From positions 1 through 64,000 of IMG/VR virus record IMGVR_UViG_3300034105_001128: DNA of 64,000 bases. One strand, 5' to 3'. The stretch comes from a virus. The stretch's first letter is position 1; each line of letters starts with the position of its first letter. The notes beneath the pieces are model-generated. The model did not search any database and was not told the origin of the DNA. It saw only the letters and a list, made by a program, of their open reading frames with translations. A program made the position numbers and the translations under genes. Shown piece by piece: positions 4,342 through 8,496 of the stretch.

Positions 4342-4662
4342 ATGTCAAAAAGTTGGACAAACGAAGGGCCTGATACTGAATCTTGGTTAAACAGTATCAC
4401 TACCGAAAAAGAAACCGTAGCTGATTTACTCAGTTGCGGTAACTGTGGTCGCCGTATACAACCAAGTCAAAAAAGCTTGGATGTGTACAACACACGGTAC
4501 AAAAGCTACGAACACTATCACGAAAGCTACGTAGGTTGTTATGAATCTACGCGGCCCAGCGGTAAGGTTCGCCTTGCGCACCGCTATAAGCCCTGGATGC
4601 AAAACGTATTAAGTGACGTTTATACTCCAGAGCCTACACACTGGACTAACTTAGATCAGTAA
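4342..4662 (+). CDS. CxxC hypothetical protein
   Basis: 106 aa. CGNC (about 32-35) plus Cys66 could hold a metal. The Tyr/His/Lys-rich middle (YKSYEHYHESYVGCYES) is unusual. The ATG follows motif copy 5 and AAAGGAACC. Its stop codon is buried in the first stem of the structured region that follows (4655-4706), so termination and RNA folding may interact. Confidence 0.6.
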   Translation: MSKSWTNEGPDTESWLNSITTEKETVADLLSCGNCGRRIQPSQKSLDVYNTRYKSYEHYHESYVGCYESTRPSGKVRLAHRYKPWMQNVLSDVYTPEPTHWTNLDQ

Positions 4663-4888
4663 TAAAGCGGGATGACTGTTGCGTCAGAAAACTTTATTTC
4701 ACTGATAAGTTAGTCCCCTAGTCTGGTTGGCTAAGCCAACCTCAAGCATACTTAACAGGTCTATACCAGAATAATTTAGACGCTCACGCGCTAGTAGTAC
4801 GAAGTAACTAGATGTATGGGAGATGAGAAGACAACGTGACGACCAGTTCAGTCCCTGTATGCAACGGGGGTAAGCCAACCAGACTACT
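4655..4888 (+). ncRNA. candidate structured RNA with alternative pairings
   Basis: A 245-base gap without an ORF contains nested complementarity. Stem 1: ATCAGT-AATAAAG (4655-4667) with CTTTATT-(TC)-ACTGAT (4692-4706), plus inner TGAC/GTCA. Stem 2: a 14-bp perfect long-range pairing, 4719-4732 with 4873-4886. Nested stem 3: GCATAC (4746-4751) with GTATGC (4857-4862), extended by AGG/CCT. The left arm of stem 2 can instead fold locally as GGTTGGC-TAA-GCCAACC (4725-4741), because TAAGCCAACC occurs twice (4732-4741, 4871-4880). The two folds exclude each other, as in a riboswitch or attenuator. No known RNA family recognised. Confidence 0.55.
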
Positions 4889-4907
4889 TAAATAGATTGG
4901 AGAGCAC

Positions 4908-5147
4908 ATGTGTTATGAATGTGATGATGACGACTCAATGCCAGACGAAGAGTTTAGTATCAACATGATTCCTGAAGAGGAACGTGAAGAGTTCTTAGAC
5001 TATGCTGTTGAGAAGTTCCATAAAGTTATAGAAAAAGCAGTACAGAATGACATCCTGTTTAATCTAATAACAGAATGGCCTGAACATAAGCAGGCCATGT
5101 TTACTTTCGCCACCATTATGGAAGATAAGCTTCTGGGTGACGATTAA
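4908..5147 (+). CDS. acidic helical hypothetical protein
   Basis: 79 aa and strongly acidic. CYEC at residues 2-5 with a following Asp run could bind a metal; the rest is an amphipathic helix. TTGGAGAGCAC precedes the ATG. It is the first gene after the structured RNA candidate, so it may be what that element controls. Acidic small phage proteins often inhibit host enzymes, but nothing here shows that directly. Confidence 0.6.
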   Translation: MCYECDDDDSMPDEEFSINMIPEEEREEFLDYAVEKFHKVIEKAVQNDILFNLITEWPEHKQAMFTFATIMEDKLLGDD

Positions 5148-5202
5148 TTTTCCTTACACAACGTAAGGGAACGATACCAATACCAGAGAAGGGGTATGAT
5201 AT

Positions 5203-6609
5203 ATGGATATCGCAATGTTCACTGAATCGTACGAACCAAACATGGGTAACAAGCGACGTCAAGTCCTTGTTGTTCCACATGATGGGGCTGTGCGTATCTA
5301 TTCTCGCTTGACTGATGGCACTAAAGGCCACAACAGCAAGTGGGAAGAGACTAACCTAGAAGATATCTCACAAGAGATATCAGACAAAGAAACATTGACA
5401 CGAACACCTGTTGGAGTGTATGTAACTCCAGCAGATAATCGTGCGATGGATTCAAAAGGTTATTCACCAGTGTTGGGTACCAAAGCATGCGACAAGCATG
5501 GTAGGGCAATGACAACAACAGATACCACACCAGTTGTAGATATCATCTGTGATTTCTACGAACAAGTCAATGTCGGAGACGACAGTCTGGAGAAATACGT
5601 GACGGATAACCGCTCAAGTACAGGCACTACAGTTCCTTTAGTAGTTGCTGTACCAACACAAACAATGGATGATCTAGTACCAGCACAATCGGCACCATCA
5701 TTCAATGTATCGTTAGCAACAGTTCCTCCAATGAAGTTGGCGGAACGTTATGTGCACCGTAAAGTATACGGTGTTGAAGACTTCAAAGCCTTTGACAAAG
5801 CACGATCTAACGGTATCAACGTTCTTATCTATGGCCCTACAGGTCCAGGTAAGACAACAGCTGTAGAAGCGTGGGCAGCAGCCCGCGGTCTACGTATGGC
5901 TACAGTATCAGGTAACGCATCTATGGAGTCTCGCCAGCTATTCGGTGGCTTCATTCCTGATGGCATCGGAGGTTATGGTTGGATCGATGGTCCAGTAACT
6001 GATGTTGTACGTAACGGTGGCGTCTTATTGCTCGATGAGATGAACTTCATCAGCCCTAAGATTTACACTACATTGTATCCGCTAACAGATGGTCGTCGAT
6101 GCATTACATTGCTCGATCACATGGGTGAAACAATCGTGGCACACAAAGACTTAACAATCTTTGCAACCATGAACCCAGACTACATCGGTACAACACCGCT
6201 TAACTTCGCTATGCGCAATCGTTTCGACATTCAATTGTCGTGGGATTACGATGACGCAGTAGAGGCTAAGCTAGTTTCATCTAAGGCTCTCTTGCTAGTA
6301 ACTAAGCAACTTCGTGCTGAAGCTGCTAAGGGTCAGTACGAGACACCAATCTCAACTAACATGCTCATCGAAGTTGAAGCGTTCATTAAGGATGCTGATC
6401 TTGGCTACGAGTTTGCGGTTGAGAACTTCATTGCTCACTTCAGTGCGGAGGAGCAAGCATCTGTTCGTCTAGTCTTCCAGACACACGAACACAACATCAA
6501 GACAGACTTCGGCATCGAAGTTCCAATAACAATGGAACAAGCTGCTACAGTAACTATTGATGAACAACTATCCCAATGGGTAGCAGCACGTCAACTACAA
6601 CCGAACTAA
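5203..6609 (+). CDS. MoxR/CobS-like AAA+ ATPase
   Basis: 468 aa. An N-terminal region of about 180 residues precedes an AAA+ module: Walker A GPTGPGKT (211-218), Walker B VLLLDE (274-279), sensor-1 ATMNPD (Asn324) and arginines at 338 and 340. MoxR/CobS ATPases form rings that remodel a partner carrying a VWA domain, and that partner is the next gene (12-base gap), so the two should act as one chaperone-like complex in the cytoplasm. CobS proper loads cobalt in B12 synthesis; the long N-terminal extension argues for a phage-specific role. AAGGGG precedes the ATG. Motif copy 6 lies inside (PTQT). Confidence 0.9.
   Translation: MDIAMFTESYEPNMGNKRRQVLVVPHDGAVRIYSRLTDGTKGHNSKWEETNLEDISQEISDKETLTRTPVGVYVTPADNRAMDSKGYSPVLGTKACDKHGRAMTTTDTTPVVDIICDFYEQVNVGDDSLEKYVTDNRSSTGTTVPLVVAVPTQTMDDLVPAQSAPSFNVSLATVPPMKLAERYVHRKVYGVEDFKAFDKARSNGINVLIYGPTGPGKTTAVEAWAAARGLRMATVSGNASMESRQLFGGFIPDGIGGYGWIDGPVTDVVRNGGVLLLDEMNFISPKIYTTLYPLTDGRRCITLLDHMGETIVAHKDLTIFATMNPDYIGTTPLNFAMRNRFDIQLSWDYDDAVEAKLVSSKALLLVTKQLRAEAAKGQYETPISTNMLIEVEAFIKDADLGYEFAVENFIAHFSAEEQASVRLVFQTHEHNIKTDFGIEVPITMEQAATVTIDEQLSQWVAARQLQPN
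5653..5664 (+). repeat. 12-base motif, copy 6
   Basis: CCAACACAAACA inside the AAA+ ATPase gene, read as PTQT. Confidence 0.75.
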
Positions 6610-6621
6610 GTTAGGAACCAT

Positions 6622-8496
6622 ATGTATAACGATGATTTATCATCCGAACCGTGGTACCAACAAGAACGTGATGAGGAATCTCAATTACGTTCTGTTAGGC
6701 TGAATGCTCTGTGCCGTGTGTACGAGCAAGCAGACCGTGTTCTAAGTGGTGACCCTGTGATTGTGAATGTTGTTACCGGAGGAAGCGCACCAGCGTGGTC
6801 CGATGGAGCATCTATCACATTCAATGCAGACGAGATCAATGACCTTGACTTGGAAGCATTGACACAGATCAACGGCCTGAACTATCACGAGTTGGCTCAC
6901 CATCTCTATACACCACGTCGTGGAACAACATTCATGAAGTGGGTTATGGAGAATCAATACTTAGAGGCTGCAAATATACTAGAGGATCAGCGTATCGAGA
7001 CTCTACTTACAGCACGCTATCCAAGTATCATTCCGTATCTAACAGCCACAGTTGCTAGGTGGCTAGGCAACACACCCGAGCATGCTATAGGTAACTATAT
7101 GCTGGTGCGTGGCCGTAGGTATCTTCCATTGGAAATCAGACAATCATTCAGAGATTTGTTTGCTTTCCCTGATTTACTACCAGCCATCGTAGATATTGTA
7201 GATCAGTATCGTACGCTGGCATTCCCACGTGACTATGAGAAAGCACAGAAACTCATCAAGCGGTTCAATGATGAGGTCTTAGGTAATCTTGACATGCCAC
7301 AACTACCACAAGGTATGAATGGCTGTACGTCACGTGATCCCATTACTAAAGGTCGTCCCGAACCTGGTAGAGCACAGGAGAAAGACGCAGCTAAAGGTTG
7401 CAACATGGGTACAGCTGAACCAATAGGTGGTGGTCGTAAGCCAAACCTTAAGCCCAACACAAACCCAACCGAAGGACAAAGCACGGCTGCGGTAAGTGCA
7501 CCGCAAACATCTAGTGAAGCACTTGACATGCGTGCTAGGAACCAGGAACAAAAACAACCTGGTAACTTATCAGCAGGCTCAGGTCATCACGAAAGTGTTG
7601 GCGGCATACCAGACAACGTCAAGGAAATGCTTGAGGATACCATCCAGACAGTGTTAGAACGTAAAGACGTTCAACAGGATGTTAAGACGAAGCAGAAAGT
7701 AATTGTCGGTGGTGATGGTAAGCATGATGACACAATCAAGTCAGGTAAGTTCGATATGACATCTGTTCCTAATGAATCAGTGTTGTTATATCGTAAATTT
7801 GCCCGTGAACTTGAGCGTCTTCGTGATGAATGCGAACCCGCATGGCATCGTGAGGAAGCTAGTGGTCGCCTAAACATGCAGCGTGTGTTTAGAGGCTGCG
7901 AGATTGATGAGGCCTTTGACCGTTGGGATGAAGGCAATGATGGTGCCGATGTAGAAGCGGTAATCATGATTGATCGTTCTGGCAGTATGGCTAGTGGTCA
8001 GAATGATCGCAGAGCATCTGAAGCATGTTGGACAATCAAGCGTGCACTTGAGCAAATTGGTGCGCCAGTCACAGTCTATGCCTTTGATGATAAGGCTGAG
8101 GTTGCGTACAAGCGTACAGAGCTAGCTCACCGTACACAATACAAGTTCATCTACGGCAATGGTGGTACTAATCCATATACCACCCTACTTGCTGCAGAGC
8201 AACTATTCATATCGTCACGACGCAAAAACAAAATGCTATTCATAGTTACTGACGGTGCGTTTGACGCATCCAAGAACGATGAAGTCATTGAGCGTATTGC
8301 TAAGCGTGGCGTACTCACAGCCATGACACTAATCATGGCTAATGATGATGCTCAGTACTACGAAGATCGTGGTATGACCGAGAAAGAATTCAGACATGGT
8401 GCTGAGATCTTTGGTCGCATCAACAATGCACGAGACCTATTGCCATTTGCCAAGGCAGTAGTAATGGGGGCAATCAAAAAGCGTGGCGGCCGTTAA
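6622..8496 (+). CDS. CobT-like protein with HExxH motif and VWA domain
   Basis: 624 aa. Residues about 80-130 hold HELAHH (89-94) and NILEDQRIE (118-126), the segments typical of CobT-like and putative metallopeptidase-VWA proteins. Residues 225-330 are a disordered Pro/Gly/Gln linker; residues 446-620 form a VWA domain with MIDAS DRSGS (451-455). The VWA domain should bind Mg and contact the AAA+ ring of the upstream gene. HExxH suggests a zinc site, but no protease activity is proven. Motif copy 7 lies in the linker in a third reading frame (KPNTNP), which argues the motif is selected as nucleic acid. Confidence 0.85.
   Translation: MYNDDLSSEPWYQQERDEESQLRSVRLNALCRVYEQADRVLSGDPVIVNVVTGGSAPAWSDGASITFNADEINDLDLEALTQINGLNYHELAHHLYTPRRGTTFMKWVMENQYLEAANILEDQRIETLLTARYPSIIPYLTATVARWLGNTPEHAIGNYMLVRGRRYLPLEIRQSFRDLFAFPDLLPAIVDIVDQYRTLAFPRDYEKAQKLIKRFNDEVLGNLDMPQLPQGMNGCTSRDPITKGRPEPGRAQEKDAAKGCNMGTAEPIGGGRKPNLKPNTNPTEGQSTAAVSAPQTSSEALDMRARNQEQKQPGNLSAGSGHHESVGGIPDNVKEMLEDTIQTVLERKDVQQDVKTKQKVIVGGDGKHDDTIKSGKFDMTSVPNESVLLYRKFARELERLRDECEPAWHREEASGRLNMQRVFRGCEIDEAFDRWDEGNDGADVEAVIMIDRSGSMASGQNDRRASEACWTIKRALEQIGAPVTVYAFDDKAEVAYKRTELAHRTQYKFIYGNGGTNPYTTLLAAEQLFISSRRKNKMLFIVTDGAFDASKNDEVIERIAKRGVLTAMTLIMANDDAQYYEDRGMTEKEFRHGAEIFGRINNARDLLPFAKAVVMGAIKKRGGR
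7454..7465 (+). repeat. 12-base motif, copy 7
   Basis: CCAACACAAACC (11 of 12) inside the CobT-like gene, in a different frame (PNTNP). Confidence 0.7.

Follow-up and report, generated by a model that had tools for sequence, protein, structure and literature searches.

Retron non-coding RNAs (msr-msd) have paired ends (a1/a2) with a variable region inside, and precede an operon in the same orientation. In Y RNAs, including YrlA, a long stem is formed by the ends of the RNA, and the Ro60 protein (Rsr) contains a VWA domain. Adenovirus VA RNA is a rod of ~160 nt with a terminal stem, variable between viral types. The GOLLD, ROOL and OLE RNAs are several hundred nucleotides long. GOLLD is, by its name, partly lake-derived (PMC2864571, PMC12286853).

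We analyzed a 64,000-nucleotide stretch of DNA (the window), taken from a virus record of 76,241 bases, and describe here an RNA element named RNA-1. An initial annotation had proposed a structured RNA at 4655-4888; compensatory changes and a held-out covariance model bear out the structured RNA, while its extent is narrowed to ~168 bases. The Rfam search that this annotation had proposed gave no family for RNA-1, with no match above the gathering threshold among the 4227 families of Rfam 15 in the window and a single 13.5-bit chance match on the other strand in a permissive search of 4600-4940. ARAGORN identified no tRNA or tmRNA in the window. RNA-1 thus appears to be a previously unlisted family, having neither an Rfam match nor a description in the open literature searched.

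Genomic setting and architecture of RNA-1

RNA-1 follows the stop codon of one phage gene and precedes an operon encoding an acidic mini-protein, an AAA+ ATPase and a VWA-domain protein, the gene order that had been read initially (Table 1). The tail sheath protein is similar to that of Streptomyces phage BRock and the AAA+ protein to those of Gordonia and Brevibacterium phages, which makes an actinobacterial contractile-tail phage the likely source of the window. The label "freshwater" for these phages rests on our interpretation of the metagenome contigs as being of lake and sediment type. No relatives of the AAA+ protein were found in a scan of the bacterial and archaeal genome collection, and no type-A RNA (the interior type of the window, see below) in the scanned bacterial genomes.

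Only two relatives of the upstream ORF were found, and other genes occupy the same place elsewhere. The acidic mini-protein has no PHROG or Pfam match, and its structure model (three helices, pLDDT 76) does not itself provide a functional lead. The VWA protein has a counterpart annotated as CobT-like in an isolate phage. In the isolates DalanDe, Cantare, Hanem and GMA6, a large gene comes after the AAA+ gene (where it has a name, this is CobT-like or VWA), and there is no comparable gap directly upstream of AAA+. Within the operon, the gap between the acidic and AAA+ genes (5148-5202) contains, besides a hairpin (UUUUCCUUAC/GUAAGGGAA), the element AUACC..GGGGUA adjoining the AAA+ start, both present in relatives too. 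A string, (C)CAACACAAACA, is repeated on the plus strand of the window (positions 576, 1365, 2475, 2977, 4321, 5654, 8499 and 9974), often right after a stop codon and ahead of the next gene; possibly, it is a phage expression signal.

Table 1. Coordinates of RNA-1, its helices and the flanking features in the window
Feature	Position	Strand	Remarks
Upstream ORF	4342..4662	+	106 aa; no confident family
Upstream RNA hairpin	4643..4716	+	CGGGA-hairpin-GAAAA motif; overlaps stop of ORF 4342-4662
Whole RNA-1	4719..4886	+	168 nt bulged rod; held-out covariance model, one copy per record, type-A fold
P1 closing helix, 5' arm	4719..4732	+	pairs with 4873-4886
P2, 5' strand GCC	4735..4737	+	pairs with GGU 4869-4871, beyond AA / A internal loop
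Exchangeable interior	4738..4868	+	type A in window; about five types in relatives
P3, 5' strand GCA.ACU.AAC	4746..4756	+	pairs with 4846-4858
P3, 3' strand GUU.AGU.(CCC bulge).UGU	4846..4858	+	pairs with 4746-4756
P2, 3' strand GGU	4869..4871	+	pairs with GCC 4735-4737
P1 closing helix, 3' arm	4873..4886	+	pairs with 4719-4732
Acidic mini-protein	4908..5147	+	79 aa; first gene 3' of RNA-1
AAA+ ATPase	5203..6609	+	AAA_5, CobS/MoxR-like
VWA-domain protein	6622..8496	+	presumed AAA+ partner

The perfect 14-bp stem noticed initially is located exactly as given and forms the closing helix P1. P1 is paired in 100% of cells in the 22 aligned sequences, with compensatory changes at most pairs, and P2 is paired in 22/22 (variants GCU/AGU, GCU/AGC, ACC/GGU and GCC/GGC). 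In type A, P3 shows double changes of the A-U/G-C and U-A/C-G kinds, and in other types it was recognised by eye (for example, GUUAU/AUAAC in L009). The inner GCATAC/GTATGC stem proposed earlier does not hold, as it is intact in the window only (1/22); GCA is the only part of GCATAC in the conserved rod, where it is paired with UGU at 4856-4858. A 3' hairpin, P5 (CCC-UG-loop-CA-NY-GGG, 4853-4868), has 88% of cells paired, is intact in 11/22 sequences and excludes some of the rod pairings with which it competes. The partners of the GGG run, CCC at 4853-4855 or CUC at 4741-4743, are mutually exclusive, and each is partly supported.

The gap had been described as free of ORFs, which is correct for the plus strand; on the minus strand there is one 59-aa TTG ORF (4699-4878). 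In most relatives, however, the minus frames are interrupted by stops. Against dinucleotide shuffles, the core at 4719-4886 has the better fold (z -3.3, 1/200 shuffles as good), as, more weakly, has the wider gap (z -2.1). Since the minus-strand fold of the core is nearly as stable as that of the plus strand, fold energy alone does not identify the strand, which is given by the G-U pattern.

Selection for pairing and exchange of the interior

Searches with the AAA+ protein gave 39, then 60 viral loci, and the loci of the clade nearest to the window have an RNA with matching ends just upstream of the acidic gene. RNA-1 is present in 22 other related viral contigs, in a constant slot and in one copy per searched record, and its presence requires one change on the AAA+ tree. 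Near-exact pattern scans gave two chance matches and one further real locus (L124), which was found by the RNA-pattern scan alone and is likewise upstream of acidic and AAA+ genes. The alignment (plain MAFFT) comprises 22 distinct sequences, the window and 21 contigs, L124 having been found separately; a 95-nt short form of RNA-1 in L035, which the covariance models missed, was excluded.

In the closing helix P1+P2, 350 of 350 cells are paired and 13 of the 17 pairs have double changes, while sliding the 3' strand by 1-3 columns as a control leaves 12-46% of cells paired. The alignment thus shows selection to maintain pairing in both P1 and P2. The helix contains 27 G-U and 0 A-C cells; therefore, the plus-strand RNA, in the gene direction, is the selected form. 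The same pattern, the covarying arms, and the single copy per record, confined to one slot and always in the gene direction, argue against a DNA element (a cruciform, a replication origin or the terminal inverted repeats of a mobile element), which could account for a perfect inverted repeat with a variable inside, and which we consider the least credible of the alternatives.

The fold of type A, the commonest type (10 sequences), has 47 pairs with 97% of cells paired and double changes at 22/47, a count that leans toward the fold, chiefly in the short inner helices, because the structure was predicted from the same alignment. A covariance model built from type A only recovered 12/12 of the non-A RNA-1 loci searched (E 6e-16 to 2e-6), with no other match in 334 kb, and when 42 records were searched with the all-type model, 22 gave a single copy each, in every case in this slot. 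The covariance analysis suggested in the initial annotation therefore came out in favor of a structured RNA, and covariation within type A shows that the interior itself is structured.

The clearest replacement is seen between L014 and L019, whose flanks are 97-100% identical over ~1 kb on each side and whose interiors are unrelated, the elements of 146 and 168 nt both being enclosed by the same closing stem. Wholesale replacement of the interior occurs between phages in which the adjoining genes are 98-100% identical. The contigs behind L015 (the L014 locus) and L019 are mosaic elsewhere too, with many other modules differing. Of seven small differences inspected between them, only the RNA interior is a structured noncoding cassette; most of the others are coding changes or insertions.

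In the 21 sequences with full flanks, interiors of the same type are 67-93% identical (mean 0.81), those of different types 58-75% (mean 0.67) and shuffled ones ~0.61, and some same-type pairs have flanks only 0.62-0.74 identical. The identity of the interiors shows no relation to that of AAA+ (Spearman 0.07), compared with 0.51-0.71 for the flanking regions and a weak 0.36 for the P1 arms. On the AAA+ tree, the interior type requires 12 changes against a shuffled-label mean of 11.0, for a small sample of about five types in 22 sequences with labels partly assigned by eye (L013 and L037 are least certain). These comparisons show that interiors of about five types have been exchanged among the phages without regard to either flank.

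The conservation within types also bears on a simpler role for RNA-1, that of an insulator or mRNA-stability or processing element in which P1 alone matters by blocking read-through ribosomes or nucleases, the interior being filler. Such a role would agree with P1 and P2 being the most constrained parts, and with the tight fit of RNA-1 between the stop codon and the next Shine-Dalgarno sequence. However, filler would decay, and the interiors keep their within-type identity even where the flanks have diverged, as well as having compensatory changes of their own; we regard this explanation as improbable.

Embedding in the message and candidate roles

The distance from the end of P1 to the ATG of the acidic gene is 17-26 nt in 22/22 sequences, with the Shine-Dalgarno sequence in between; in L012 and L014, P1 begins within ~ten bases of the upstream stop codon, and no intrinsic terminator (a hairpin with a T-run) was found between RNA-1 and the acidic gene in the window. 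From these observations RNA-1 lies embedded in the mRNA and, judged by its sequence context, belongs to a longer message, at least at the stage of transcription. The stand-alone phage ncRNA considered initially is thus borne out only in part, since RNA-1 lies within an mRNA between a stop codon and the next ATG. In fold computations, the Shine-Dalgarno sequence is unpaired at 0.80 with RNA-1 and 0.81 without it, a pattern that is that of an insulated domain rather than of a translation switch.

One reading offered in the initial annotation, a switch (riboswitch or attenuator) that alternates between two mutually exclusive folds, started from GGTTGGC-TAA-GCCAACC (4725-4741) and the duplicated TAAGCCAACC. 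Both sequences are present, the local GGUUGGC-UAA-GCCAACC hairpin is possible in the window and 86% of its cells pair across the relatives, but the hairpin is intact in 5/22 sequences, its middle pair is broken in 13/22, no double change occurs, and forcing it costs 9.3 kcal/mol. Where the 5' arm of P1 is mutated (L017, L012, L022, L033 and L004), the far arm compensates and the local arm does not. The local arm is partly complementary because the conserved AAGCCNACCUC strand forms P2 (GCC/GGU, covarying). An expression platform is also lacking, as the Shine-Dalgarno sequence is not sequestered and there is no terminator-like site before the ATG in the window, and we find a switch of this kind very hard to credit.

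A cis-regulatory leader in the broader sense, in which RNA-1 responds to a ligand, a protein or temperature and thereby regulates the operon at the level of translation or transcription, is the main rival. RNA-1 immediately precedes the same operon in every case, in its orientation and at the short distance given above (22/22), and more distant relatives carry other candidate structured RNAs in the slot, all of which would suit a leader. On the other hand, there is no conserved alternative fold, Shine-Dalgarno access is unaltered by the fold, and no terminator-like hairpin with a T-run separates RNA and gene in the window; a fixed ligand pocket should moreover preserve the core, yet the interior is replaced beside nearly identical genes. 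Weakened by this replacement and by the free Shine-Dalgarno sequence, the leader is in our view rather unlikely.

We favor, with a probability of about one half, an autonomous insulated RNA domain in a polycistronic mRNA, the interior of which is an exchangeable specificity module. Structure, strand, embedding and exchange are shown here by sequence, while we infer action in trans, release and target. Ahead of the acidic, AAA+ and VWA genes, the plus-strand RNA-1 folds into a long bulged rod that P1 closes. P1 would hold the domain in its fold and isolate it from the surrounding message, and it may also act as a handle for processing. The exchanged interior could then be directed against something variable outside the operon, a host factor, host defence or a resident phage being candidate targets, so that RNA-1 would behave like a decoy or immunity RNA. 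On the comparative evidence, we read RNA-1 as horizontally exchanged and probably acting through its interior. Against the module reading it can be held that the 5'-leader position and strand in 22/22 also suit a cis-regulatory element, that the sample of types is small and partly defined by eye, that the P1 arms follow the AAA+ phylogeny only weakly (0.36), and that these phages are mosaic throughout, because of which swapping alone is no proof of selection for diversity.

More tentatively, it can be speculated that the locus holds RNA "alleles", with a constant base-paired P1/P2 frame in the operon mRNA and differently folded interiors recombined under diversifying selection, as the RNA equivalent of a swappable gene for immunity or anti-defence, acting together with or beside an AAA+/VWA machine; we think this possible rather than likely. 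If the interiors are specificity modules, a phage RNA locus would be evolving like an immunity gene, and a structured RNA would be tied to the phage AAA+/VWA (CobS/CobT-like) pair, the role of which is poorly understood. The natural swap between L014 and L019 offers ready-made matched constructs.

Neighbouring RNAs and comparison with known systems

The separate stem placed initially at 4655-4706 exists, but its arms are really 4643-4667 and 4692-4716 (25 nt, 76% complementary), and it therefore overlaps the stop codon of the upstream ORF. This hairpin is a separate RNA element, because CGGGA-hairpin-GAAAA occurs elsewhere in other contigs. The small motif ACGGAG-gCGGGA-(4-5 bp hairpin)-GAAAA-CUCC-(CU)-CGU is found on the plus strand about once in most scanned contigs (the window at 4643-4716, L002-L007, L088, L092, L097, L104 and others). 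It lies beside RNA-1, beside unrelated RNAs or 1-4 kb upstream, and has no Rfam match in the window.

A second RNA of ~190 nt, RNA-2, occupies the same slot in a neighbouring clade, upstream of the acidic or AAA+ gene (L018, L025, L029, L034, L038, L040, L072, L074, L078, L081 and others). By eye, its closing stem varies in sequence with pairing kept (for example, GCACACAAC/GUUGUGUGC in L038), including swaps of GCAC/GUGC to AUAC/GUAU or GUAG/CUAC. RNA-2 has a near-constant AAGAA/GUAA internal loop, is often followed by a strong hairpin, and in L029 and L040 differs in one hairpin with the remainder near-identical. The RNA-1 covariance models gave no match to RNA-2; the strings AUACUUGAU..ACCC.AG and CAGUCCCU, recognised by eye, are common to both, and common descent of RNA-1 and RNA-2 is suggested from sequence.

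Further candidate structures are found in the slot in more distant relatives. In L026, L027 and L031, no acidic gene was detected upstream of AAA+, and a stretch of several hundred nucleotides with no evident gene harbours a pair of candidate RNAs, of which one has ACAGAGGCgaGCGUGGG/CCCACGCCCUCUGU as its closing stem. L091, L106, L107 and perhaps L092 and L093 carry, immediately before the AAA+ start, tRNA-like mini-domains with an acceptor-like stem (GUGCUA/UAGCAC) around a T-arm (GACAAGUUCGAUUCUUGUC), which ARAGORN did not call. The loop GUCUGnnAUCGG or a near-match caps long leader-region hairpins in L091, L092, L093, L104 and L106.

Compared with known systems, RNA-1 is similar to retron ncRNA in size, paired ends, variable interior and a position ahead of an operon with which it shares the strand; unlike at a retron, the reverse transcriptase (PF00078) is absent from the 16 records searched, with control genomes positive. 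The OMEGA RNA of TnpB was likewise rejected, the TnpB/Cas12f-like nuclease (PF07282) being absent from 16 records. With Y RNA, RNA-1 shares a long stem formed by the ends and a VWA protein encoded nearby; it differs in that Ro60/TROVE (PF05731) is absent from 18 records (control positive), and its VWA protein follows AAA+ and is CobT-like. The approximate size, the rod with a terminal stem and the variability between types recall adenovirus VA RNA, an analogy only; the viruses and hosts are unrelated. From GOLLD, ROOL and OLE, RNA-1 differs in its length of ~168 nt, its position between two ORFs, its exchanged interior and the lack of an Rfam match. With these and other candidate structured RNAs of bacterial, phage and metagenomic origin, it shares the character of a long, conserved and covarying ncRNA of unassigned function that was found by comparison (PMC2864571, PMC12286853).
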